A stretch of 64,000 bases of DNA from Methylohalobius crimeensis 10Ki. Its GTDB lineage: Bacteria > Pseudomonadota > Gammaproteobacteria > Methylococcales > Methylothermaceae. Every line of letters starts with the position of its first letter. Within the stretch, counting starts at the first letter, position 1. The position numbers were made by a program, and so were the translations under genes. The notes beneath the pieces were generated by a model, which did no database searches, was not told where the DNA came from, and saw only the letters and a program-made list of their open reading frames with translations. The DNA is taken from NCBI RefSeq assembly GCF_000421465.1, contig NZ_ATXB01000002.1:62001-126000 (forward strand), read 5' to 3'. Below are positions 39,726 to 51,517 of the stretch, piece by piece.

Positions 39726-40423
39726 TCGAACTCAAAATTGATCAGGCCGCTTGGCTGCGCTTTCTGCATAGGGAAGGGCTGGATGACGAAGACTTCGGCT
39801 ATGGCCTCCACGCGTGGCTCAAGGCTGCCTTCGGTGAATTGGCTCCCAAGCCTTTCCGGCTATTTTTAAAACGACCCCGACCACTTCGGGTGCTTGCCTA
39901 TAGTACGGTCGATGCCGCCGCCTTGCGCGACCGGCTGACTAATTTTGCTGATCCGGCTGTCTATGCTGCCTGCCCACCCGAATACGTCGACAGCCGCAAA
40001 ATGCCTCAGTGGCAATCTGGACGGCGATTGGCATTCGAGGTTCTGTGTTGCCCAGTCCGCCGCCGGTCTACGACCTCCGGTGTCCGCGAGAAGGATGTAT
40101 TTCTTGTACATGCCGACCATACCCCTAAAAAAAACATTCTGGATCGCACCTCAATATATCGACAATGGCTGGAAGAACAATTCAGCACCGCAGCACAGAT
40201 TCATGACCTACGGCTCGAAGGTTTCCAACTCATACGTCAAACACGACGCACACAAACGAAGAATCACCAACGAAAAAGATTCCACCCTATGAGACCTCAA
40301 GCTTTATTACGCGGCGAATGCGTCATCCAAGAGGAGAATAAATTTTTCCAACTTGTTGCCCGCGGAATCGGGCGCCACCGCGCTTTTGGTTATGGGATGT
40401 TGTTATTGAGGCCACCAAGATGA
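39716..40423 (+). CDS. casE: crRNA endoribonuclease Cas6e (CasE)
   Basis: 235 residues of two RAMP folds. The glycine-rich loop near the C-terminus is ARGIGRHRAFGYGMLLL, the hallmark of Cas6 proteins. A His-rich N-terminal region (LDDEDFGYGLHAWLKAAFG) probably bears the catalytic His. It cuts the repeat RNA at the base of its stem, here CCCCGC-ACAC-GCGGGG. It overlaps casD by 10 bases and cas1 by four. Confidence 0.93.
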   Translation: MYMIELKIDQAAWLRFLHREGLDDEDFGYGLHAWLKAAFGELAPKPFRLFLKRPRPLRVLAYSTVDAAALRDRLTNFADPAVYAACPPEYVDSRKMPQWQSGRRLAFEVLCCPVRRRSTTSGVREKDVFLVHADHTPKKNILDRTSIYRQWLEEQFSTAAQIHDLRLEGFQLIRQTRRTQTKNHQRKRFHPMRPQALLRGECVIQEENKFFQLVARGIGRHRAFGYGMLLLRPPR

Positions 40424-41316
40424 GCCGCAGCACCTTGTTTCCCGGTCGGTTAGGACTTGCAGAATCAAGAATTCCCCATACCGACCGTCACGGCCTCTTA
40501 TGGCTTAACAAGGGTAATTTGTATGTAGAAGACGGTACCCTGCACTTCCGCGCCGCCGGTAGCAATGACATTGCACCAGGGAATTACGCCATACCTTATC
40601 AGACCCTTTCCATGATCCTGATGGGACCGGGAACTACCGTTAGTCATGACACTCTCCGTCTTCTTGCCCGGCACGGAACCTTGCTTGCAGCCATCGGAGA
40701 AGGTGGAGTCAAATTTTATACCGCACCGCCCATGGGACAAGGACGTTCCGATATTGCCCGCGCCCATGCCCAACTTTGGGCGAATAAGAAAAAACGTCTC
40801 GATACAGCCAGACGCCTTTATGCTTTCCGTTTTGGACGGGTACTTCCCCATCGAGACATCACCGTCTTACGGGGAATCGAAGGCGGGCGGGTCAAAGAAC
40901 TCTATAAAATCACTGCTCAGAGGTACGGAATACCTTGGAAGGGCAGGCGCTATAACCGTAACAACCCCAACGCCGCAGACCCCCCCAATCAAGCGATTAA
41001 TCATGCCGCCACCTTTGTCGAAGCAGCCGCTGACGTAGCAGTGGCAGCAGTGGGAGCACTCCCACCTCTTGGCTTCATTCATGAAGATTCGAGTAATGCT
41101 TTCACGCTCGATATCGCCGATCTGTGGCGTGCCGACATTACCCTTCCTATGGCCTTCTCGGTCGCCAAGCGAGCGATGAACGATCCGGAAATTTCTCTCG
41201 AAAGGGAAATACGACGCGAAGCGGCTACGTGGTTCCGAAAACATAAGTTGATTCCCAATATGATCGACCGGATCAAGGAGTTGCTCCATGAGCATGACAG
41301 TGGTGGTAACTCGTAA
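40420..41316 (+). CDS. cas1: CRISPR adaptation integrase Cas1 (type I-E)
   Basis: 298 residues. Metal ligands are in GIEGGRVKELYKITAQRYG (Glu), LGFIHEDSSNAFTLDIADLWRADI (His and Asp). The N-terminal strand domain begins LPGRLGL-like (FPGRLGLAESRIPHTDRHGLLWL). With Cas2 it inserts spacers at the leader end. No frameshift or missing residue is seen, so adaptation should be functional. Confidence 0.96.
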   Translation: MSRSTLFPGRLGLAESRIPHTDRHGLLWLNKGNLYVEDGTLHFRAAGSNDIAPGNYAIPYQTLSMILMGPGTTVSHDTLRLLARHGTLLAAIGEGGVKFYTAPPMGQGRSDIARAHAQLWANKKKRLDTARRLYAFRFGRVLPHRDITVLRGIEGGRVKELYKITAQRYGIPWKGRRYNRNNPNAADPPNQAINHAATFVEAAADVAVAAVGALPPLGFIHEDSSNAFTLDIADLWRADITLPMAFSVAKRAMNDPEISLEREIRREAATWFRKHKLIPNMIDRIKELLHEHDSGGNS

Positions 41317-41599
41317 CGTTTCAGACCGGATTCGAGGTTTTTTGGCTTCTTCTATGTTAGAGCTCGCCCCTGGCGTTTACAGTGCTCCCCGCCAATCTCC
41401 CGCCGTTCGGCAGCGTATCTGGAAAGTTCTTGAGGAGTGGTTTTCGATCGAGACCGAGGCATCGATCATCATGCTCTGGCAAGACCCGCAAACTCCCGGA
41501 GGCCAAGCTGTCAAAACCTTGGGTTTACCTCCTATCGATTTGATTGAAATAGATGGCATTGTCTTAAGTCGAAAAAATAAAACACCCTCTATCAAATAG
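41288..41599 (+). CDS. cas2: CRISPR adaptation protein Cas2e
   Basis: 103 residues. MTVVVTRNVSDRIRGFLASSMLELAPGVYSAPRQSPAVRQRIW is the Cas2e ferredoxin-fold start and LEEWF follows. It overlaps cas1 by 29 bases and starts at the ATG at 41288 by family alignment. Its stop codon TAG lies inside the second arm of a hairpin, which makes the end of the cas message a terminator. Confidence 0.94.
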   Translation: MSMTVVVTRNVSDRIRGFLASSMLELAPGVYSAPRQSPAVRQRIWKVLEEWFSIETEASIIMLWQDPQTPGGQAVKTLGLPPIDLIEIDGIVLSRKNKTPSIK

Positions 41600-41619
41600 A
41601 GGGAATGATTGAATTTTTT
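41585..41619 (+). terminator. Intrinsic terminator at the end of cas2
   Basis: Perfect 8-bp arms CCCTCTAT (41585-41592) and ATAGAGGG (41596-41603) with a 3-nt loop are followed by six Ts at 41614-41619. The cas2 stop codon (41597-41599) is in the second arm. It would separate the cas mRNA from the pre-crRNA. Confidence 0.6.
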
Positions 41620-41647
41620 GTTCTTTAACAAAATGTTATGGTTAAGA
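41604..41647 (+). promoter_or_regulatory. CRISPR leader
   Basis: A short AT-rich stretch between the terminator hairpin and the first repeat. It holds an inverted repeat TAACA-AAA-TGTTA (41626-41638) and a weak candidate promoter (TTGAAT at 41609, TGTTAT at 41634). Only 44 bp separate hairpin and repeat, so the leader functions, including any IHF site, may extend back into cas2. Confidence 0.6.
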
Positions 41648-43443
41648 GGTTACCCCGCACACGCGGGGATCGACCTCCTCGCCATCGATCAGCCCGGATG
41701 CGACGGCGGGTTACCCCGCACACGCGGGGATCGACCCGATCCCCGCAAGGCGCGCACATGCCGCCCACCGGTTACCCCGCACACGCGGGGATCGACCTCA
41801 AAGGGCAGCTCAAATTTCCCGCGACTCAAAGGTTACCCCGCACACGCGGGGATCGACCCTGGACGACGTGATGCGCCGCGCCGCCAAACTGGGTTACCCC
41901 GCACACGCGGGGATCGACCTCCCGCACCGCCTGGGTCATCTCGGTGAGCGATGGTTACCCCGCACACGCGGGGATCGACCCGGCAGCGGGATCGTCTGCG
42001 CGCTGAAATCGGGGTTACCCCGCACACGCGGGGATCGACCTTTTAAGCGCCAGTTCGAGATTTTTTTGCGTCAGGTTACCCCGCACACGCGGGGATCGAC
42101 CCTGCTCGACCAATACATGGCCCGGGCCGGCCGCGGTTACCCCGCACACGCGGGGATCGACCCTGCACGGTCAGCGAGCCGGCGCTGAAACTCGGGGTTA
42201 CCCCGCACACGCGGGGATCGACCCTGACCACGCCGGAGGCGGACGTATCCTTGACCGGTTACCCCGCACACGCGGGGATCGACCAACCGGAGTAAATGTT
42301 ATGTCATATGGGAAAGGGGTTACCCCGCACACGCGGGGATCGACCCGAGGCGGAGAGACTGGCCGTGGCCGATAGATCGGTTACCCCGCACACGCGGGGA
42401 TCGACCTCAGGTATCCCGCGACACAATCAAAGACTCTAGGGTTACCCCGCACACGCGGGGATCGACCCTACTTGGGCTATTTTTTTTGATCTCGTGCAGT
42501 GGTTACCCCGCACACGCGGGGATCGACCCCCCGGACGATCTATTGGACGCCACCCGCTATGGGTTACCCCGCACACGCGGGGATCGACCTTCGTCCCTCG
42601 CTCGAGTGTTGAAACAACAACCGGTTACCCCGCACACGCGGGGATCGACCTCAATTCCGAAGTGTTTCGATGTCGCTAGTTCAGGTTACCCCGCACACGC
42701 GGGGATCGACCATACCTCCAGCAATCCTGATTTAGTTACCTCGCGGTTACCCCGCACACGCGGGGATCGACCTGATCATGGTTTTCTCCTAAATATTTGA
42801 CTCTCGGTTACCCCGCACACGCGGGGATCGACCCACTTATTATCGACAGGTTAATGGGCGGACAATGGTTACCCCGCACACGCGGGGATCGACCCATACC
42901 CGTTATGATTGAGCGCGGATGGGATGCGGTTACCCCACACACGCGGGGATCGACCTGACTACGGCGTCGATTACGATGACGGATTGCCGGTTACCCCGCA
43001 CACGCGGGGATCGACCCTGGAGCTTAATGTGGTCCCTGCCTGATTGTCTGGTTACCCCGCACACGCGGGGATCGACCCCGGGGGCAGCGGCGGGGATCGT
43101 CCACGCCGGCGGTTACCCCGCACACGCGGGGATCGACCGGTCCAGGCGACGTACAGGGACTCACCCAATGGGGTTACCCCGCACACGCGGGGATCGACCT
43201 CCGTCGGCGCGCGAAAAACGCCAGGCGGCGGCGGTTACCCCGCACACGCGGGGATCGACCCCGGGCCGATTTAATTTTGTGGGGATAGCCGATGGTTACC
43301 CCGCCCACGCGGGGATCGACCCATGATAGCCAGTCCGGCTATCGCGCGGGCCGCGGTTACCCCGCACACGCGGGGATCGACCTTCGGCGCTGTTGGCTTC
43401 GATATCGGCTTTAAGGGTTACCCCGCACACGCGGGGATCGACC
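41648..43443 (+). CRISPR. Type I-E CRISPR array, 30 repeats and 29 spacers
   Basis: I counted 30 copies of a 28-nt repeat that starts GGTTACCCCGCAC and ends GGGGATCGACC, with a 6-bp stem CCCCGC/GCGGGG and an ACAC loop. The period is 61 except for spacer 6 (32 nt, others 33). Repeat 22 (42928) has G10 changed to A in the stem; repeat 28 (43294) has A12 changed to C in the loop. All others, including the last one at 43416, are identical. The array lies directly downstream of cas2 on the same strand. Confidence 0.98.
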
Positions 43444-43642
43444 ATCAGGCGAAGCGAGACAGCGAAATTCGCCGCATTCTGAGACAGCAAGGCGGGTATA
43501 GCGGATGGCGGGGCCTCCCACCGGATGACCCGAAACCCCGCATAATGCTCCGGTCAGGCGACCGTGCTACGGCCGGGAGAATTTCACCGTGTCACATCCG
43601 CGCCCTATATTGTAGACCTGATCGAACAGATAAAGTGCTCCG
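43444..43642. other. Non-repeat region downstream of the array
   Basis: No intact gene is evident. A short open stretch continues in the repeat frame to 43646 (KRDSEIRRILRQQGGYSGWRGLPP is the most protein-like part), but no start or family is recognised. Together with the phage-like fragment that follows, it looks like eroded DNA. Confidence 0.4.
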
Positions 43643-43801
43643 ATGATCCAAATCGAAGTCGACGACCGCCCCGTCCTGGACGCCCTGGGGCATCTCCTGG
43701 ATGCCGTGAACAACCCAACCCCTGAGACGACGGTGTCAGTTCTCACATTCCAACGTTATGAGGCAATAGCGTCAGATCTTGCAATGCAACATCTATCTTG
43801 A
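43643..43801 (+). pseudogene. Fragment resembling a phage virion morphogenesis protein
   Basis: 52 codons starting MIQIEVDDRPVLDALGHLLDAV. This beginning resembles the N-terminus of Mu-like virion morphogenesis (gpG-type tail completion) proteins, which open with a similar 'VDDR.VL.AL..L' strand-helix. The resemblance is lost after about 25 residues and the frame ends early, where a complete protein would be about 150 residues. I take it as a truncated prophage remnant; it may be a chance similarity. Confidence 0.4.
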
Positions 43802-43809
43802 CAGGAGGA

Positions 43810-44063
43810 ATGTGCGATTCGGTCTCCCGTCCCTGCGCAGGGAACCGTGTTTTGACTGTCTCAAAAGCCGCCCGTCGGAAACTGGCGCTTCTGAATCGGA
43901 TTGCTTCCGTGGAAGAATTGCGTATTCCACCCGGCAACCGGCTGGAAAAACTTTCCGGCGACCGGGAGGGTCAATGGAGTATCCGCATCAACAACCAATG
44001 GCGTGTTTGCTTCGAGTGGCGGGACGCCATGCCTGGAATGTCGAGATTGTGGATTACCATTGA
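43810..44063 (+). pseudogene. higB: Frameshifted HigB/RelE-family toxin
   Basis: The middle (KAARRKLALLNRIASVEELRIPPGN...SIRINNQWRVCFEWRD) is a clear HigB/RelE toxin. The C-terminal HAWNVEIVDYH follows in another frame, one base missing around 44025, and the N-terminal part is also out of register (only a third frame gives IRSPVPAQGTV-like residues before a stop). Two disruptions make a functional toxin unlikely. The TGA at 44061 is nine bases before higA. Confidence 0.72.
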
Positions 44064-44071
44064 GAGATTAT

Positions 44072-44434
44072 ATGAACATTCGTGCCGAAGATCTGGAGCA
44101 GACGGACTTTTCCGATGTAGCGGATCTATCCTCGGGGAAGTTGCCGCCCGTCCATCCAGGCGAAATTCTCTTGGAGGAATTCCTGAAACCGATGGGCATC
44201 AGCCAGTACCGGCTGGCCAAGGAAATCGGGGTGCCTCAGCGCCGCATCGGTGAGATCGTCGCGGGCAAGCGATCCATCAAACCGGATACCGGTCTGCGCC
44301 TGTCGCGCTTTTTCGGCATGAGCGACGGTTTTTGGGTGGGGTTGCAAACCGATTACGACATGGCCGTGGCTCGGGAGTCGATGCGGGACGTCTTGGCTCA
44401 CATCCAGCCTTTCGAGCCGGCTCGTCACACCTGA
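44072..44434 (+). CDS. higA: HigA-family antitoxin
   Basis: 120 residues. An HTH_3 domain covers PPVHPGEILLEEFLKPMGISQYRLAKEIGVPQRRIGEIVAGKRSIKPDTGLRLSRFFGMSDGFWVGLQTDYDM, the standard HigA/VapI pattern, preceded by about 30 extra N-terminal residues. It should bind and repress its own promoter. It remains open while its toxin is broken. A GAGAGA box precedes the ATG at 44072. It may now act as a solitary repressor. Confidence 0.88.
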   Translation: MNIRAEDLEQTDFSDVADLSSGKLPPVHPGEILLEEFLKPMGISQYRLAKEIGVPQRRIGEIVAGKRSIKPDTGLRLSRFFGMSDGFWVGLQTDYDMAVARESMRDVLAHIQPFEPARHT

Positions 44435-44593: not shown

Positions 44594-45913
44594 TCAAGAC
44601 CAGGATTTCAACTGCTGCAGATAATATCCCGCTTTGCGGAAAAGCCGTCGGTCCTGCCGGTCGAGCCAAGAAGCGGCGAGGATGACGATCAATCCCAACC
44701 CGATGGTGCCGACCCAGGGGATGGCCGAGAAATAATCCATGGCGTAGCGGCCATAGAACAGCACTCCGGCAACCAAACAAAGGCTTCCGCAAAGCAACGG
44801 CATTTTCTCCCGGTAATGCATCCCGGCCACCGTCAGCGCGATGCCGGCGCCCGGCGCGGTGACGGGCGCCCACGCTTGGGTATCCAGCAAGGCGGCGCAA
44901 ACGCCGAACGCCGCCACCAGGGATGCAAAGGTGCGATACAGACGAGAATGATAGGTCACCTGGCTGGACAGGAAAAACAGCAGCCCGCTCAAGGGCAGCA
45001 GGTGAGCGTTGTAGCCGCCGATCCCGCCAAAAAATGCCTCGCACCCCACCCGCCATCCGACCAGCGCCGCCAAGGTGCCGACCCACTGACCGCAATACAG
45101 CAACTGCGGAGATCGGGTATAGCGCTTCAGATCGTGAATCGCACCGATTGCCAAAATCCCGCAGAGCACCAGGACCAAGGGATAGGACACCGGATGCAAC
45201 AGGCTGCGGCCGATCATGATGGCCAGCGGCAATACCAGCAGCGCCCGGGCGGCCCGGCCCTCCCAGGTTTGCATGGCGTAATCCCGGTGCAAGCACCGCT
45301 CCGCCGCGCGCCCATACAGGAATAATCCGGCGATCAGCCACACCACCCAATGGCCATCGCGCACGGGGATCAGCAACAAAGCGTTGCCGACGATGGCAGC
45401 CTGCATGAGACGTTTGGTGTGCCTGCGCGCCAGGATGGAAAAACCGGCATAGCTCACCGAGCCCAACAAAATTGCCGTCAGCACGAGGTCGACGGCGATC
45501 AGTGCGGGGCTGACGTCCATGAACCGCAACCAGCCATAGGCGGGCTGCGATGCGGCCTGGCCGTGCCACCAGGCGTAGATCATCGCGCCCACCTGAGACA
45601 CCTGGACCGAGACGAACGCCGTTCCCAGGCCGAAGAATATCCGCGCGCCCCGGGTTTCCCGCATGCCGTAGGCGCACAACAGACCGCCGCCGCACAACAC
45701 CAGGGTGAAGGCGAGCCCCACCCAATAACGGTAGGCGGGCACCAGGTCGGCATGCCCCTGGATCATGAAACCGAGCGCGGAAACCACAATCAGCAGGGTT
45801 CCCGCCCAGCGGAAATAGGTGGTTATTTTGCCGCCCCGGTTCGAGCGAGTTTCCGGCTCGGATTGCGCTTCGATCGCTGGATGAATCTCGGTAGAGCATT
45901 GCTGTGCGTACAT
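44594..45913 (-). CDS. Polytopic membrane protein of unknown function
   Basis: 439 residues. After a polar 30-residue N-terminus come about twelve hydrophobic helices separated by short loops, starting FRWAGTLLIVVSALGFMIQ and ending VGTIGLGLIVILAASWLDRQDRR. The loops are rich in Trp, Tyr and Arg, but there are no enzyme motifs I recognise; the layout is somewhat like DUF2157-type membrane proteins. A GGGAGG box precedes the ATG at 45913. It starts 14 bases after the PspA-like gene, so the two form an operon and the protein may be the membrane partner of the PspA-like protein. Confidence 0.7.
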   Translation of the reverse strand: MYAQQCSTEIHPAIEAQSEPETRSNRGGKITTYFRWAGTLLIVVSALGFMIQGHADLVPAYRYWVGLAFTLVLCGGGLLCAYGMRETRGARIFFGLGTAFVSVQVSQVGAMIYAWWHGQAASQPAYGWLRFMDVSPALIAVDLVLTAILLGSVSYAGFSILARRHTKRLMQAAIVGNALLLIPVRDGHWVVWLIAGLFLYGRAAERCLHRDYAMQTWEGRAARALLVLPLAIMIGRSLLHPVSYPLVLVLCGILAIGAIHDLKRYTRSPQLLYCGQWVGTLAALVGWRVGCEAFFGGIGGYNAHLLPLSGLLFFLSSQVTYHSRLYRTFASLVAAFGVCAALLDTQAWAPVTAPGAGIALTVAGMHYREKMPLLCGSLCLVAGVLFYGRYAMDYFSAIPWVGTIGLGLIVILAASWLDRQDRRLFRKAGYYLQQLKSWS

Positions 45914-45927
45914 GGGGGGCCTCCCGT

Positions 45928-46587
45928 TCAAGATGTACCGGAATCGCTGCGTTGGGCAACCAGCTCATCGAGCATGGCGCGCAAGTCCCGGGCATCCTCT
46001 TTTTCCCGGAATTCGGCTTCCAACCCGTCGACCGCATCGCTTTCCCTAAAACCGCATTCAGCGCCGGCGACCGTTTCTTCCCAGCGTTGAAATATCGCCT
46101 CCGGATCCTCGCCGCCCATTTCCTCCCCCGAATGGATGGCGGCATGGGCGAGTCCGTGGGTTTGCCTGGCCGCCAGCAGCGCTTTTTTGTTTTTCAGCGC
46201 TTGCAATTTGGTTTCGATCGCCTCCCGATCGGCGCGCGTCTTGGCTTCTTGCCGGCGGGTCTCCTCCCGCAATTGTTCGATGCGCTCGATCGCATGACGG
46301 GTTTCGCGCAAACGCTTGACGCATCGGAGCGCCTTCTCCTCGTCTTTCTCGCGTATTTGCACCGCACGCTCCGACCAGCGTCGGGCTTGGTTTTCCAGAT
46401 CGGTCAGCCTTTCCTCATACTGGCGCACGAGTCGATTCAAGCGATGCAGCTGCACGCGGGTGCTCGATCCCGCCGCTTCCAGCTCCTTGATCGCCGCGCC
46501 GGCGAGCGCTTCGTGGTTTTCAAAATCATCGGCCACTTGGTCGATGCGGCTTTTCAGGCTGATATAAATGCGTTTCAGGGTTGTCAT
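45928..46587 (-). CDS. PspA/IM30-like coiled-coil protein
   Basis: 219 residues, almost wholly helical and highly charged (long heptad-rich stretch from RIYISLKSRIDQVADDFENHEAL to KKALLAARQTH). The beginning TLKRIYISLKSRIDQVADDFENHEALAGAAIKELE is the PspA/IM30 pattern, although the amphipathic N-terminal helix is short and divergent. Such proteins bind stressed membranes as oligomers. GAGGA lies eight bases before the ATG at 46587. A sigma-54 promoter-like site is found 40-56 bp upstream. Confidence 0.78.
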   Translation of the reverse strand: MTTLKRIYISLKSRIDQVADDFENHEALAGAAIKELEAAGSSTRVQLHRLNRLVRQYEERLTDLENQARRWSERAVQIREKDEEKALRCVKRLRETRHAIERIEQLREETRRQEAKTRADREAIETKLQALKNKKALLAARQTHGLAHAAIHSGEEMGGEDPEAIFQRWEETVAGAECGFRESDAVDGLEAEFREKEDARDLRAMLDELVAQRSDSGTS

Positions 46588-46627
46588 GAATTTTTCCTCT
46601 GTTTTTCGACGAATCAATTCATCTATC

Positions 46628-46643
46628 ATCAAAAAACGGGCCA
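46628..46643 (-). promoter_or_regulatory. Predicted sigma-54 (-24/-12) promoter of the pspA-like operon
   Basis: On the minus strand the site reads TGGCCCG-N4-TTGA, close to the consensus TGGCACG-N4-TTGC with the invariant GG at -24; the -12 dinucleotide is GA rather than GC. It would put the transcription start near 46618, about 30 bases before the pspA-like ATG. Confidence 0.55.
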
Positions 46644-46708
46644 TGACATGGAGCTCAATAAAAACAACCGCTTATATATTTTTGTATCATTCCGTCCCCG
46701 ATCGAACA

Positions 46709-46744
46709 TACAATTTATGAACGTCTGCCGTACATTTTGAGAAC
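46709..46744. promoter_or_regulatory. Predicted enhancer (UAS) for the sigma-54 activator
   Basis: Two direct repeats, TACAATTTATGAAC (46709-46722) and TACATTTTGAGAAC (46731-46744), match at 11 of 14 positions and are 22 bp apart, two helical turns. They lie about 80-115 bp upstream of the predicted -12 element and just before the activator gene, where PspF-like proteins bind. Confidence 0.5.
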
Positions 46745-46759
46745 AGCTTATCTGAAGTG

Positions 46760-48229
46760 ATGGTCCCCAAAATGAACCCCCTCACCGCCAATCAGCACGC
46801 TTTTTTCCGCCAAATCGCCGACCTCGCCTTCACCAACCCCTTCAGCAGCGCGCGGGAGCAAGCCGATTGCGCGCTATTGGGAATCGCCCCGGGCAGCATG
46901 GGATGGCTCGACCGGGTGGAAACCATCCAAGCCCGGCTGAAGTGTGAATTGGATCGACTCCAAAGAAAAAAACCCTTCAATATTAGAGATTATTCAGAAA
47001 AAACCTACGAAATCATGTTATTTTCGTGGTTGTTTTACGCCTTTCACGAGGTACAGGATGATTTCAGCGCTTTCATCCACGCCCAGGGGCGGGCCGGCGA
47101 CCACCCCATCCCCCTGCCGTTCGCCCGGCGCTTGATCGGCATGTTCGAGCAAGCCGGCTTCACCCCCCGGGAAACGGCCGACTATATCGCGCTGTTTTAC
47201 CAAATTCAGCGCGGCTATCACTTCATCAGCGAGTCGATCCATGGCCAGTGCGATGCCATGATCGAATTGCGCATGCGGCTCTGGAACAACATCTTCACCT
47301 TCAACCCCCATTGGTATCTCAACCATCTCAGCGGCACGATGGAGGATTTTTCCACCCTGCTGCTGGGGGAAACGGGCACCGGCAAGAGCCTGGTGGCCCA
47401 TGCCATCGGCTGCTCGGGACTGATTCCCTTCGATCTGGAAAAACGCCGCTTCGAGGAAAGTTTCGCCGGCGCCTTCCAGGCCATCAACCTGTCCCAGTAT
47501 TCCGCAGGGCTCTTGGAATCCGAGCTGTTCGGCCACAAGAAAGGGGCGTTCACCGGGGCGATCGACCACCATCCCGGCCTGTTCGCTCGTTGCAGCCGAT
47601 TCGGGGCGGTTTTTATCGACGAAATCGGCGATATCGACCTCCCCACCCAGGTCAAACTGCTGGGCGTTCTTCAGGAGCGGGTCTTTAGTCCGGTGGGCAG
47701 CCATGAAAAACTGCGCTTTTCCGGCCGGGTCATCAGCGCCACCAACCGGGATCTTCAACAACTCCGGCAAGACAAACGCTTCCGGGACGATTTTTACTAC
47801 CGGCTCTGCTCCGACGTGATCACCCTCCCCAGCCTGAGGCAAAGGCTCGGGGAAAACCCGGCGGAACTGCGGGATTTGGTGACCAAGCTGCTGAGCCGGA
47901 TTCTCCGCGATCCGGACGAACGACTGGTGGAAGAGGTCGAGCGCAAAATCGCCGCCAGCGTACCCGAGGACCACCCGTGGCCGGGAAATGTGCGCGAACT
48001 GGAGCAATGCATCCGGCAGATCTGTCTGGCCGGGGTCTACCGCCCGATGCCACGTCGCTCCTCATCCGCCTCCCTCTTTTCGGAGGATGACCTGGAAAAG
48101 AAGCTGTCCGCCAAGCAATTACTGCAGGCCTATTGCCGTTCCCTTTATGAGCGACACGGCAGCTACCAGGCCGTCGCCCAAATCACCCAACTGGACCGGC
48201 GCACGGTACGCAAATATGTGGTCGATTAA
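46760..48229 (+). CDS. Sigma-54-dependent activator with unusual N-terminal domain
   Basis: About 489 residues. The AAA+ domain has Walker A LLGETGTGKS (Lys ~209), the sigma-54 loop ESELFGHKKGAFTGA (GAFTGA at ~262-267), Walker B AVFIDEIGDIDLP, and the R-finger region DDFYYRLCSDV. A Fis-type helix-turn-helix ends the protein (SYQAVAQITQLDRRTVRKYV). The first ~190 residues are neither REC, GAF, PAS nor V4R by eye; they are helical with aromatic clusters (MLFSWLFYAFHEVQDDF, ALFYQIQRGYHF). The gene is divergent from the PspA-like gene, as pspF is from pspA. Start codons at 46757, 46760 and 46772 cannot be separated. Confidence 0.87.
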   Translation: MVPKMNPLTANQHAFFRQIADLAFTNPFSSAREQADCALLGIAPGSMGWLDRVETIQARLKCELDRLQRKKPFNIRDYSEKTYEIMLFSWLFYAFHEVQDDFSAFIHAQGRAGDHPIPLPFARRLIGMFEQAGFTPRETADYIALFYQIQRGYHFISESIHGQCDAMIELRMRLWNNIFTFNPHWYLNHLSGTMEDFSTLLLGETGTGKSLVAHAIGCSGLIPFDLEKRRFEESFAGAFQAINLSQYSAGLLESELFGHKKGAFTGAIDHHPGLFARCSRFGAVFIDEIGDIDLPTQVKLLGVLQERVFSPVGSHEKLRFSGRVISATNRDLQQLRQDKRFRDDFYYRLCSDVITLPSLRQRLGENPAELRDLVTKLLSRILRDPDERLVEEVERKIAASVPEDHPWPGNVRELEQCIRQICLAGVYRPMPRRSSSASLFSEDDLEKKLSAKQLLQAYCRSLYERHGSYQAVAQITQLDRRTVRKYVVD

Positions 48230-48328: not shown

Positions 48329-51300
48329 ATGCAGTCGGATGAACTCTCCCAACCGGAATGGCTGGTGAAATATCTGGATACGCTGCCGGCGGTCGTGTTT
48401 CTTTTGGAGGCAGAGGACGACCCTCGTCAACGCCTGCGAACCGTTTATCTCAGCGCGTACGCGGAAGAGCTGCTGGGTGCGGACGCAAAGCCTCATCTCG
48501 ACGCGCAGGCCTGGCTATTCGATCGCGCCCATCCCGAGGATGCAAAGCAGTGGCGGAACAAGTGGCTCGACACCCCGAGCGGCGCGGTCCTGGAACACGA
48601 ATATCGGCTAAAAATCGCCACGGAGCAGTACGCCTGGATCAGGTGTCAAGTTCGCCGGGCGGACCGCGCCGGCAAACCTTCGATGTTCGCGGGGATACTC
48701 ATCGAGACGAACCGGAAGCGTTCCTTGGCGGAAGCGCTGGCCGACTTCAACACGCCGCTTCGCACCGTAATCGACCTGGTACCGCACATGATCTTCGCCA
48801 AGGACGCCGAAGGTCGATTTTTGCTGGCCAACCAGGCGCTGGCCGAGGCCCACGCGACCACGCCCCGGGAAATCATCGGCAAAACCAACCCCGAGCTTCC
48901 CGGCGCGGAAAAGGAGTTTCCCAAATTTCTCCGCGACGAGCAGGAAGTGCTGCGAACCGGACAACCGATGTATGTGCCGGAGGAAAGCTTCACCACCGCT
49001 TCGGGGGAGACCCGGATTCTGGAAACGAGAATGCTGCCTTTCCTCCCGGAGGGCGAAGAATTACCGGCGGTGCTCGGGGTGGCCGTCGATATCACCGCCC
49101 CTAAACGCGTCAAGCAGGAATTGGAGCGGTCGAAAAAACGACTCAGACATATCCTGGACGCTTCTCCCGCGGCGATTTATACCCTCCGCCCCACCGGCAA
49201 TCTCGAATCGCCCTTCCAAGTCACCATGATCAGCGCCGGCATCGAATCCATCGTCGGCTACAAGGCCGAGGCTTGGTTGTCCCAACCCACCTTCTGGGTG
49301 GATCACTTGCATCCCGAAGACCGCCAAGAGGCCTTATCCCGCCAGCGCATCTTGCTTGAAACCGGCATGTTGGACCACGAGTACCGTTTTCTGCACAAAG
49401 ACGGGAACTATCGCTGGATTCACGACAAGCTCCGGCTCATCCGGGACGAAGATAGCAACCTGGAGGAAGTGGTGGGATGCTGGATGGACCTGACCGGGCA
49501 CAAAGAGATGGACAATGCGCTCAGGGAGAGCGAGGCGCGGTTTCGCGGCGCTTTCGAAACCGCCGTCAACGGTATGGCGCTGTTGAGCCCGGAAGGTCGC
49601 TGGCAACAGGTCAACGAAGCCCTTTGTCAAATGCTGGGCTACTCCCAACAGGAACTGCTCGCGCAGAATTTCCAAGCCATCACCCACCCCGACGATCTGG
49701 CGTGCGACCTGGAAAATTTGAACCGGCTGCTTCGAGGCGAGATCGATTCCTATCACATGGAAAAGCGCCTCCTTCACAAAAGCGGCGAGCCGGTTTGGGT
49801 GCAGAAAAGCGCCACCACGGTGACGAACTCCCATCAACTACTCCATGTACTCGCCCAGATTCAGGATATCAGCGCCAGAAAGGAAGCGGAAATCGCCTTG
49901 CTGAAGGCCAAGGAAGCGGCCGAAGCGGGAAATCGGGCGAAGATGCTGTTCCTCGCCAACGTCAGTCACGAGCTTCGCACGCCCTTGAACGGAATCATCG
50001 GCTTCGCGCAAGTCCTGCAGAAAAAAAACACCCTGGCCGCCGAAGACCAGGAGATCGTTCACCACATCGCCCAGTGTGGGGATTATTTGCTGGGCCTGAT
50101 CAACGATCTGCTCGATTTCACCAAGGCCGATACCGAAATGCTGACGCTGCAGCCGAAAGATTTCGATTTTCCGGGTCTGATTCATGAAATATGCGAAATA
50201 TTTCAGATGAACGCCAGCGAAAAGCACATCCGTTTCGAATTCCAGCCCCTCACCCCCCTTCCGCGCCGAGTCAGTGGGGATCACAAGCGCCTGCGCCAGG
50301 TGCTGATCAATATTCTCGGCAACGCGGTCAAATTCACCCATGCGGGCGGAGTCAGTTTTCGTGTCGGCTACGGAGGCAAAACCGCCCGTTTTATGATCGA
50401 AGATACCGGCATCGGCATCGAGCCCCGTTATCTGGACAAAATATTCGAACCCTACGAGCAAGCCTCGGCGAAAAAGATGGGGCTGGGCGGGGCGGGACTG
50501 GGGCTTGCCATCAGCAAGAAAATCGTCGACTTGATGGAGGGCGAGTTGGAAGTGTCCAGCCAACCCGGCAAAGGGACGCTATTCAAGATCGAACTTCCCC
50601 TACCTTCCTCGCCGGGCGAAGAACCCGATCATTACCTGGCTCCGGCCGATGCGGTTGCCGAAATCCCCGGCGCATCGACGAAAGTGGCCCCCCCCCGACC
50701 CCGATCAATGATTTCCCGCCGCTTTTTCGATCGAATTTTTCTAATCGCCGACGACAATGAAATCAATCGCACCGTGCTCCGAAAACTCCTGGTCGACTAC
50801 GGTGCCCAGGTACTGGAAGCCGCGAACGGCGAAGAAGCCGTGACCCTGATTCGAAAAATCCCCTTCGATCTCATCTTTCTCGACCTGAGGATGCCCGCCA
50901 TGGACGGCATTGAGGTCATGCAATGGATTCAGTCCAACGCCTCTCCCAATGCCCAAACGCCCGTCTTGGCGATTACCGCCCATGCGTTGTCCGAACAAAG
51001 TCCCATGCCACGGGAGACGGGATTCGTCGATTGCCTGATCAAGCCGGTTTCCGATCAGGAACTCTATACAGCGATCGATCGCTGCCTGCATCTCGGAGAG
51101 ACAACCCGGCCGGCCCCGAAGAACGAGACACCCTCGCCTTCCGCCCCCCGAACCGCGGAAGACTTCGCCGCCACCCTATTGAGGCATACCAACGGGAATG
51201 GCCAGCTGAGCAGTTTATTGTTTCGCAAACTGTGCAAGGAATTACCCGGCCAGATGTCCGCTACCCGCGAAGCATTAATGGGCGGCGATCTCGTCCGGGC

Positions 51301-51517
51301 CAGGGAGATCAGCCACAAAATTTTGGGCTCCATGAGCATCTGCGGGTTCGGCGACATCAAGCGCTCGGTGGCCGAACTGGAGGCGAAAATCGTCGCCGAC
51401 GATCACCCGGCCGCGATGGATGCGTTCGAACGAGCCGACGAACGAATCAAACGGCTCATCGAAATGGCGCGCGATATTCTAAGATTCCTCGAAGAAGCCA
51501 TGTATTCCCCAAGATGA
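48329..51517 (+). CDS. Hybrid sensor histidine kinase with four PAS domains, REC and Hpt
   Basis: 1062 residues, no membrane segments. PAS-like domains cover roughly 10-130, 137-262, 267-394 and 401-525 (the second opens LRTVIDLVPHMIFAKDAEGRFLLANQA). The HisKA motif is NVSHELRTPLNG with His 547, followed by an HATPase with NAVKFTHAGG, DTGIGIEPRYLDKIFEPY and GGAGLGLAISKKI. The REC domain has its phosphoacceptor Asp at ~852 (LIFLDLRMP), and an Hpt domain closes with SHKILGS, His ~996. This is the BarA/TorS layout in a soluble form. The partner response regulator is not here. Confidence 0.92.
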   Translation: MQSDELSQPEWLVKYLDTLPAVVFLLEAEDDPRQRLRTVYLSAYAEELLGADAKPHLDAQAWLFDRAHPEDAKQWRNKWLDTPSGAVLEHEYRLKIATEQYAWIRCQVRRADRAGKPSMFAGILIETNRKRSLAEALADFNTPLRTVIDLVPHMIFAKDAEGRFLLANQALAEAHATTPREIIGKTNPELPGAEKEFPKFLRDEQEVLRTGQPMYVPEESFTTASGETRILETRMLPFLPEGEELPAVLGVAVDITAPKRVKQELERSKKRLRHILDASPAAIYTLRPTGNLESPFQVTMISAGIESIVGYKAEAWLSQPTFWVDHLHPEDRQEALSRQRILLETGMLDHEYRFLHKDGNYRWIHDKLRLIRDEDSNLEEVVGCWMDLTGHKEMDNALRESEARFRGAFETAVNGMALLSPEGRWQQVNEALCQMLGYSQQELLAQNFQAITHPDDLACDLENLNRLLRGEIDSYHMEKRLLHKSGEPVWVQKSATTVTNSHQLLHVLAQIQDISARKEAEIALLKAKEAAEAGNRAKMLFLANVSHELRTPLNGIIGFAQVLQKKNTLAAEDQEIVHHIAQCGDYLLGLINDLLDFTKADTEMLTLQPKDFDFPGLIHEICEIFQMNASEKHIRFEFQPLTPLPRRVSGDHKRLRQVLINILGNAVKFTHAGGVSFRVGYGGKTARFMIEDTGIGIEPRYLDKIFEPYEQASAKKMGLGGAGLGLAISKKIVDLMEGELEVSSQPGKGTLFKIELPLPSSPGEEPDHYLAPADAVAEIPGASTKVAPPRPRSMISRRFFDRIFLIADDNEINRTVLRKLLVDYGAQVLEAANGEEAVTLIRKIPFDLIFLDLRMPAMDGIEVMQWIQSNASPNAQTPVLAITAHALSEQSPMPRETGFVDCLIKPVSDQELYTAIDRCLHLGETTRPAPKNETPSPSAPRTAEDFAATLLRHTNGNGQLSSLLFRKLCKELPGQMSATREALMGGDLVRAREISHKILGSMSICGFGDIKRSVAELEAKIVADDHPAAMDAFERADERIKRLIEMARDILRFLEEAMYSPR

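Follow-up and report, generated by a model that had tools for sequence, protein, structure and literature searches.

What the phage shock protein (Psp) response senses is still debated. In E. coli, the psp genes are described as being under sigma-54 control by the activator PspF (PMC9239133), which is reported to have no signal domain (PMC3162934) and to be inhibited by PspA through its W56 loop, the change of Trp56 to Ala abolishing PspA binding (PMC6003685). Here we analyzed a locus of Methylohalobius crimeensis 10Ki, located at positions 44594-48229 of a 64,000-nucleotide stretch of contig NZ_ATXB01000002.1 (the window, by which we mean the whole stretch), in which a pspA-like gene and a gene for a polytopic membrane protein (termed MEM) stand beside a gene for a sigma-54 activator (termed ACT, a gene label here that is unrelated to the domain name "ACT"). 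As in E. coli pspF-pspABC (L126), the PspA-family gene is divergent from the sigma-54 activator gene. In contrast to E. coli, the genome lacks PspC and a polytopic protein of about 12-14 predicted helices is found instead, while ACT differs from PspF in having an N-terminal domain, in lacking Trp56, and in scoring far under the cut-off of the PspF equivalog model TIGR02974 (140 vs. 443.55). The pspA-MEM-ACT trio is conserved as a Psp-like unit that has its sigma-54 activator next to it. From sequence comparisons, we consider it reasonably probable that this unit acts as a sigma-54-dependent membrane-stress module, which would be Psp-like in its effector but not in its regulation.

Several other described systems share some of these traits. 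Ravi et al. (2024; PMC11237479) describe, for psp operons of Gammaproteobacteria, NtrC-type PspF variants whose N-termini are ACT or PAS sensor domains; by that description they are set apart from the activator studied here, since its N-terminal domain matches no Pfam domain. The Bacillus liaIHGFSR operon likewise encodes a PspA homologue together with membrane proteins, according to the same paper, but is controlled by a two-component system, and the match of one MEM relative to DUF2157, the domain of LiaF, is weak (E 0.0015 in 1 of 12 relatives) and not found in the window protein. One Desulfovibrio activator has been assigned to a phage shock operon (PMC4641369), and Popp et al. (2022; PMC9239133) give consensus neighbors of pspA. 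The best NCBIfam model for ACT is RtcR, to which it is similar in the AAA+ part (184.9 bits over residues 199-424); the score is well below the cut-off of 650 and the match stops short of the N-terminal sensor region. No description of the trio was found among the top matches of literature searches or in the consulted passages of PMC11237479 and PMC9239133. The initial annotation of the locus had proposed an undescribed envelope-stress system, and this stands as far as a conserved unit for which no published description was found, whereas its signal and function are predictions.

All three genes that the initial annotation had named, as well as the extra N-terminal domain of the activator, were confirmed. 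The features of the locus are as follows.

45928-46587, minus strand: pspA-like gene (PspA/IM30, bacterial ESCRT-III family), 219 amino acids; the longest open reading frame (ORF) extends to 46644.
44594-45913, minus strand: MEM gene, 439 amino acids, 14 nt downstream of pspA; the longest ORF extends to 45931.
46757-48229, plus strand: ACT gene, sigma-54 activator (bacterial enhancer-binding protein), 490 amino acids as called from GTG 46757.
46772-47341, plus strand: ACT N-terminal domain, with an all-helical model, conserved in the family and of no recognized family or fold.
47342-47809, plus strand: ACT AAA+ sigma-54 interaction domain, with Walker A GETGTGK and GAFTGA.
48164-48229, plus strand: helix-turn-helix (HTH)-like segment at the ACT C-terminus, SYQAVAQITQLDRRTVRKYV, strongly conserved across the ACT family.
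46628-46643, minus strand: predicted sigma-54 -24/-12 promoter, TGGCCCGTTTTTTGAT, 56 nt upstream of the pspA start, with GA at -12.
46709-46721, minus strand: predicted ACT operator (upstream activating sequence), TTCATAAATTGTA, with one mismatch to TACA-N5-TGTA, 65 nt upstream of the -24 element.

The pspA gene probably starts at 46587 rather than 46644, since its relatives share this first residue and a Shine-Dalgarno-like GAGGAA lies in front of it; the promoter-bearing stretch is therefore freed from coding sequence. Likewise, MEM probably starts at ATG 45913, which is preceded by GGGAGG and gives 439 amino acids (445 as an ORF). For ACT, the alternative starts ATG 46760 and ATG 46772 are possible.

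To describe the conservation of the trio, two sets of loci were used. The first was obtained with MEM as a query, which was found in 34 of 251 genomes of the window's order (18 of 48 genera) and, in a phylum sample of 398 genomes, in the own genome only; 30 MEM loci, including the window, were read out of 36 places. The second was obtained by a scan with five ACT N-terminal domains, which gave 100 confirmed places among 172 candidates, of which the best 80 loci were kept; the two sets overlap. This domain is rare, being present in five of the 369 genomes of a class sample, the own genome included, and the four other places are among the 80 loci. In 7 of 84 loci, ACT was absent from the gene maps because a longer overlapping ORF took precedence, and the counts of pspA and MEM use profiles instead.

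The pspA gene adjoins MEM in all 30 MEM loci read, an association beyond chance. ACT was found at 27 of these and at two more after extension, and in all 29 it is divergent from pspA; at the thirtieth locus, pspA lies 351 bases from the contig end and the ACT side is not visible. The divergent arrangement given by the initial annotation is thus seen in 29 MEM loci including the window, whereas two gammaproteobacterial metagenome-assembled genomes (MAGs), L011 and L014, are co-directional, with pspA, MEM, a further gene, and ACT on one strand. The adjacency of the three genes elsewhere holds for pspA with MEM (30/30) and for ACT as seen from MEM (29/30), but not for ACT by itself, which stands apart in 69 of the 80 ACT loci. 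The other 11, with MEM and pspA by profile, comprise eight loci titled Methylococcaceae, Methylovulum, or Methylobacter (MEM adjoins PspA in Methylovulum miyakonense, L071) and three gammaproteobacterial MAGs (L011, L014, and L090), the last of which sits in the Methylococcaceae clade of the ACT tree. On this quick tree, the window ACT falls in a 10-row PspA-linked clade with a Shimodaira-Hasegawa-like approximate likelihood ratio test (SH-aLRT) support of 100, and L011 and L014 lie elsewhere, and the PspA link requires three changes, although a single origin is possible. Within the window's genus, MEM is present in two listed genomes besides the own one and absent from seven. Sequence identity of the window MEM to the 29 other copies is 45-53% for 25 of them, 31-37% for three, and only 39% for that of its congener L118, which hints at transfer or loss. 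A rhombotarget lipoprotein (TIGR04179) encoded between MEM and ACT in L008/L014 was rejected as a core part of the unit: its cluster occurs in 2 of the 80 ACT loci, one of which, L034, has no MEM.

The window PspA matches Pfam PspA_IM30 with 39.3 bits against a cut-off of 33.9, and a profile of 12 PspA relatives matched solved Vipp1/PspA chains with a best E of 3.6e-16 over positions 1-212 of 219. The direct comparison of this profile with E. coli PspA reported no match, and family membership was assigned from the Pfam and Protein Data Bank (PDB) sequence searches. PF04012 was found at E ≤ 0.001 in 12 of 12 trio genomes and above the cut-off in seven, four of these with a higher-scoring second copy. 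The window gene is the single PspA match of its genome, which also harbors rpoN. PspC gave 0 matches there, in agreement with the absence of pspC in the initial annotation, and no pspB- or pspC-like ORF was noticed among locus ORFs of at least 80 amino acids, a cut-off that could miss a protein as small as PspB, and no PspB family search was made. In the 12 trio genomes, PspC occurs once, adjoining a separate canonical-looking PspA (L124). As this PspA and PspC are present alongside the new trio, both systems can coexist in one genome.

No significant family was obtained for MEM in searches of Pfam and NCBIfam. A match to DUF3377 (E 0.01, below the cut-off) was judged to be chance. At a loose threshold, hydropathy gave 11 peaks for the window protein and 12-14 for 11 relatives, and the AlphaFold model, of medium confidence (predicted local distance difference test, pLDDT, 71.8), has 14 helices of at least 18 residues. 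The "twelve-helix" protein of the initial annotation is therefore approximate, and we predict about 12-14 helices. The fold search with this model gave nothing usable (best Foldseek E 0.32); the best Z, 9.3 over 104 residues of an ESX-5 chain, is within the range common for helical models.

A -24/-12 element upstream of pspA scored above the 95th percentile of shuffled sequences in all 30 MEM loci and above the 99th in 29, and it lies 50-69 nt from the pspA start in 29 of them (the only good site in L100 is at 212 nt). Of the first 12 trio loci, 10 pass the 99th percentile. The rpoN dependence proposed in the initial annotation is consistent, at the level of DNA sequence, with this promoter. 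Of the 79 ACT regions scanned (one of the 80 was too short), 29 have sigma-54 sites above the 99th percentile that are directed away from ACT, and none has such a site directed towards it. Across the same regions, TACA-N5-TGTA ranked first among 2048 half-site and gap combinations, with 30 of 79 regions; the runner-up, with 17, is a shifted version of this site, and the next occurs in 11. The dyad was sought within 150 nt upstream of the promoter in those 65 of the 80 regions whose promoter scored 9 or more; this cut-off of 9.0 was picked after the earlier scan, whose shuffled 95th percentile was 10.7. The dyad was exact in 26 of 65 regions and had at most one mismatch in 55, compared with 0.31 and 6.7 in 100 rounds of shuffling (maxima 2 and 13), and no exact dyad was found within 150 nt downstream of the promoter in the 65 regions. 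The distances between operator and promoter (n = 64) are mostly 64-113 bp, and most of them group near 64, 75, 87, 98, and 110, with a best-fitting period of 11.5-12 rather than 10.5. Steps of about 11 bp fit an activator and a polymerase that need to face each other. Among the 30 MEM loci, exact dyads lie at 64-65 nt in L105, L106, and L118, and at 84 nt in L110.

The own genome was scanned for the TTCA and TACA forms of the dyad. The TTCA dyad with a promoter was found at pspA and at one other site (reversed control, 1), and the TACA dyad with a promoter was found neither at 57-87 nt (control 1) nor at 86-116 nt (control 0). Provisionally, control by ACT in this genome appears to be mainly local. 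The other TTCA-N5-TGTA dyad with a sigma-54-like site, at G000:C1:1749148-1749261 (L127), may be due to chance.

ACT is not a Psp-only regulator. In the stretch examined, 69 of the 80 ACT loci have no MEM or pspA of the trio type, although 10 of these have less than 1500 bases upstream. The partner clusters within 5 kb (divergent side in parentheses) are LplT-Aas in 24 loci (19), VIT-vWA in 13 (13), a lipase-like hydrolase in 13 (11), MEM in 11 (9), amidohydrolase in 11 (8), rhombosortase in 11 (11), BadF in 10 (10), B12 radical SAM in 7 (7), CdsA in 4 (3), CDP-alcohol transferase in 4 (3), and rhombotarget lipoprotein in 2 (1). PspA stands beside MEM by profile in 11 of 11, where clustering counted 8. 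The representatives of LplT-Aas (NF006386) and rhombosortase pass their NCBIfam cut-offs and those of CdsA and CDP-alcohol transferase pass Pfam cut-offs, while VIT-vWA and the BipL-like hydrolase do not pass. Altogether, lipid or membrane partners occur in 43 of the 80 loci, counting the 11 trio loci, and envelope partners in 51, while 61 loci have a named partner of some kind and 19 have none; for the 69 loci without MEM, a lipid cluster was found in 32 and a lipid or envelope cluster in 40 (26 and 36 on the divergent side). The occurrence of the ACT family beside envelope genes agrees with PMC3162934, where sigma-54 is seen as controlling the exterior of bacteria.

Tentatively, ACT might represent a new multi-phylum family of sigma-54 activators in which a novel helical sensor of lipid or membrane damage, acting locally through one operator type, is combined with interchangeable operons for membrane repair. 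These would cover phospholipid synthesis, lysophospholipid re-acylation, lipases, and rhombosortase surface proteins, and the methanotroph version would be PspA with a new polytopic partner. If so, the locus would add another type of Psp control, with an activator that detects damage directly and is not released by PspA. It is rather doubtful that the operator and the partner pattern reflect nothing but the shared ancestry of local activators that have no common signal, with the lipid partners being coincidental. The diversity of partners (BadF 10, B12 radical SAM 7, and amidohydrolase 11 of 80) and the 19 of 80 loci without a named cluster would suit such an origin, but a lipid cluster lies within 5 kb in 32 of the 69 loci without MEM and the N-terminal domain is conserved across the family. 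As a separate observation, the rhombosortase in 11 of the 80 loci and the rhombotarget lipoprotein (TIGR04179), which adjoins ACT relatives in L034 (6959-7798) and in L014 (the same gene as L004 549-1499, the copy tested), hint at a link between the ACT family and rhombosortase surface anchoring.

The ACT protein matches Sigma54_activat of Pfam with 146.2 bits and has Walker A and GAFTGA motifs, the latter being exact in 75 of 81 sequences that include the window ACT and E. coli PspF. Its N-terminal extension of about 195 residues beyond the activator core has no Pfam or NCBIfam match and is conserved throughout the ACT family. The AlphaFold model of this domain is all-helical (pLDDT 86.9), and the fold search with it gave nothing usable (best Foldseek E 0.55, best VIA Z 3.8); a profile search against PDB sequences returned weak matches only, the best with E 0.008 over a 40-residue stretch. 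The C-terminal segment, despite its HTH-like conservation, has no Pfam HTH match; it may resemble a Fis-type HTH.

The position of PspF Trp56 is occupied by Phe in 12 of 12 PspA-linked and in 67 of 68 unlinked ACTs, and the distance from Walker A to this position is 25 residues in 80 of 80 ACTs compared to 13, corresponding to a 12-residue insertion. Since the W56 loop is altered in linked and unlinked ACTs alike, nothing there is PspA-specific. The initial annotation held that the locus copies the pspF/pspA logic, with MEM replacing PspB and PspC, a reading that is not supported, given these changes of the loop. In its full form, such a PspF-like feedback would have PspA hold ACT inactive until MEM, as the stress sensor in place of PspB/PspC, pulls PspA off. 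The gene set does have this logic (PspA, a membrane protein, and a sigma-54 activator) together with a sigma-54 promoter at pspA, the three genes occur together in 29 of the 29 MEM loci where the ACT side is visible, and PspA could bind ACT through another surface. However, the loop has changed, the conserved N-terminal domain is without counterpart in PspF, and 69 of the 80 ACT relatives are without this PspA and MEM. We regard this feedback as unlikely; as it overlaps partly with the module proposed above, the odds of the two do not sum to one.

Returning to the membrane-stress module with its own mode of regulation, the signal probably enters via the ACT N-terminal domain, as suggested by the change of the W56 loop in linked and unlinked ACTs. 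Moreover, ACT and its N-terminal domain are separable from PspA and MEM, which would place the sensor in that domain and MEM with PspA as an effector or anchor. In the proposed mechanism, the helical domain would receive a signal of inner-membrane or lipid damage. ACT would assemble at the dyad (46709-46721) and remodel the sigma-54 holoenzyme (Esigma54) at 46628-46643 through looping of the DNA; here the promoter and operator come from comparative genomics, and assembly and looping from the enhancer-binding-protein family. Gene order, strand, and the mostly overlapping or short gaps suggest that pspA and MEM would be co-transcribed. From the biology of the PspA family and the strict linkage of pspA and MEM, PspA may polymerize on the inner membrane, stabilizing or reshaping it, with MEM as its anchor, partner, or target.

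A number of observations weigh against this module. The weights used to score sigma-54 promoters were entered by hand from a general consensus. Among the first 12 trio loci, the promoter of L014 is below the 95th percentile (6.8 vs. 9.0), that of L086 passes the 95th but not the 99th, and the window promoter has GA rather than GC at -12. The window operator is TTCA-N5-TGTA at 65 nt, with one mismatch; five one-mismatch dyads lie at 34-51 nt, off the main distance groups, and 7 of the 30 MEM loci have no dyad with at most one mismatch upstream of the best promoter call. Where ACT is visible, MEM was never seen without it (29/29), nor without pspA, and a direct or specialized contact between ACT and MEM is therefore possible. 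As the models of the N-terminal domain and of MEM have no confident structural relative, the sensor and effector roles are assigned from context. Finally, named lipid or envelope clusters are absent from 29 of the 69 ACT loci that lack MEM, and 19 of the full 80 show no named cluster at all, in raw counts that take each partner name from one representative.

It seems improbable that MEM is the real effector, a transporter or lipid enzyme with PspA protecting the surrounding membrane in a lipid-remodeling operon rather than a stress response, for although ACT relatives adjoin lipid enzymes and transporters (LplT-Aas, CdsA, and CDP-alcohol transferase) and an OlsE-like hydroxylase is encoded between MEM and ACT in L011 (70 bits vs. 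a cut-off of 475, a score taken from L003, which holds the same gene), MEM gave no confident match to any enzyme or transporter by family or by fold, in itself weak evidence.

A sigma-54-dependent module regulated through ACT would amount to a different wiring of a known membrane-stress response in methane-oxidizing bacteria, where the pspA-MEM pair is apparently switched on by its own regulator, a member of a family that is widespread and seemingly undescribed. It would offer a way to ask which membrane signal is sensed with PspB and PspC out of the loop, and it provides a defined operator and promoter to test. It would also tie sigma-54 to envelope upkeep across phyla.

Further features were noticed on both sides of the trio. 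Just upstream of the module, at 40420-43600, there is a stretch with a Cas1 gene (Pfam match) and a run of short ORFs with a GYPAHAGID/LPRTRGDRP pattern, like a CRISPR array read in frame; another ORF in this stretch is presumably Cas2-like. At 43798-44434, a small ORF overlaps the gene of an HTH_3 protein, a pair that we take to be a toxin-antitoxin system of the HigB/HigA type. Starting 99 bp after ACT on the same strand, a gene at 48329-51517 encodes a large hybrid histidine kinase with several PAS, receiver, and Hpt domains; no similar cluster was present in the top 30 neighbor clusters around other ACTs.

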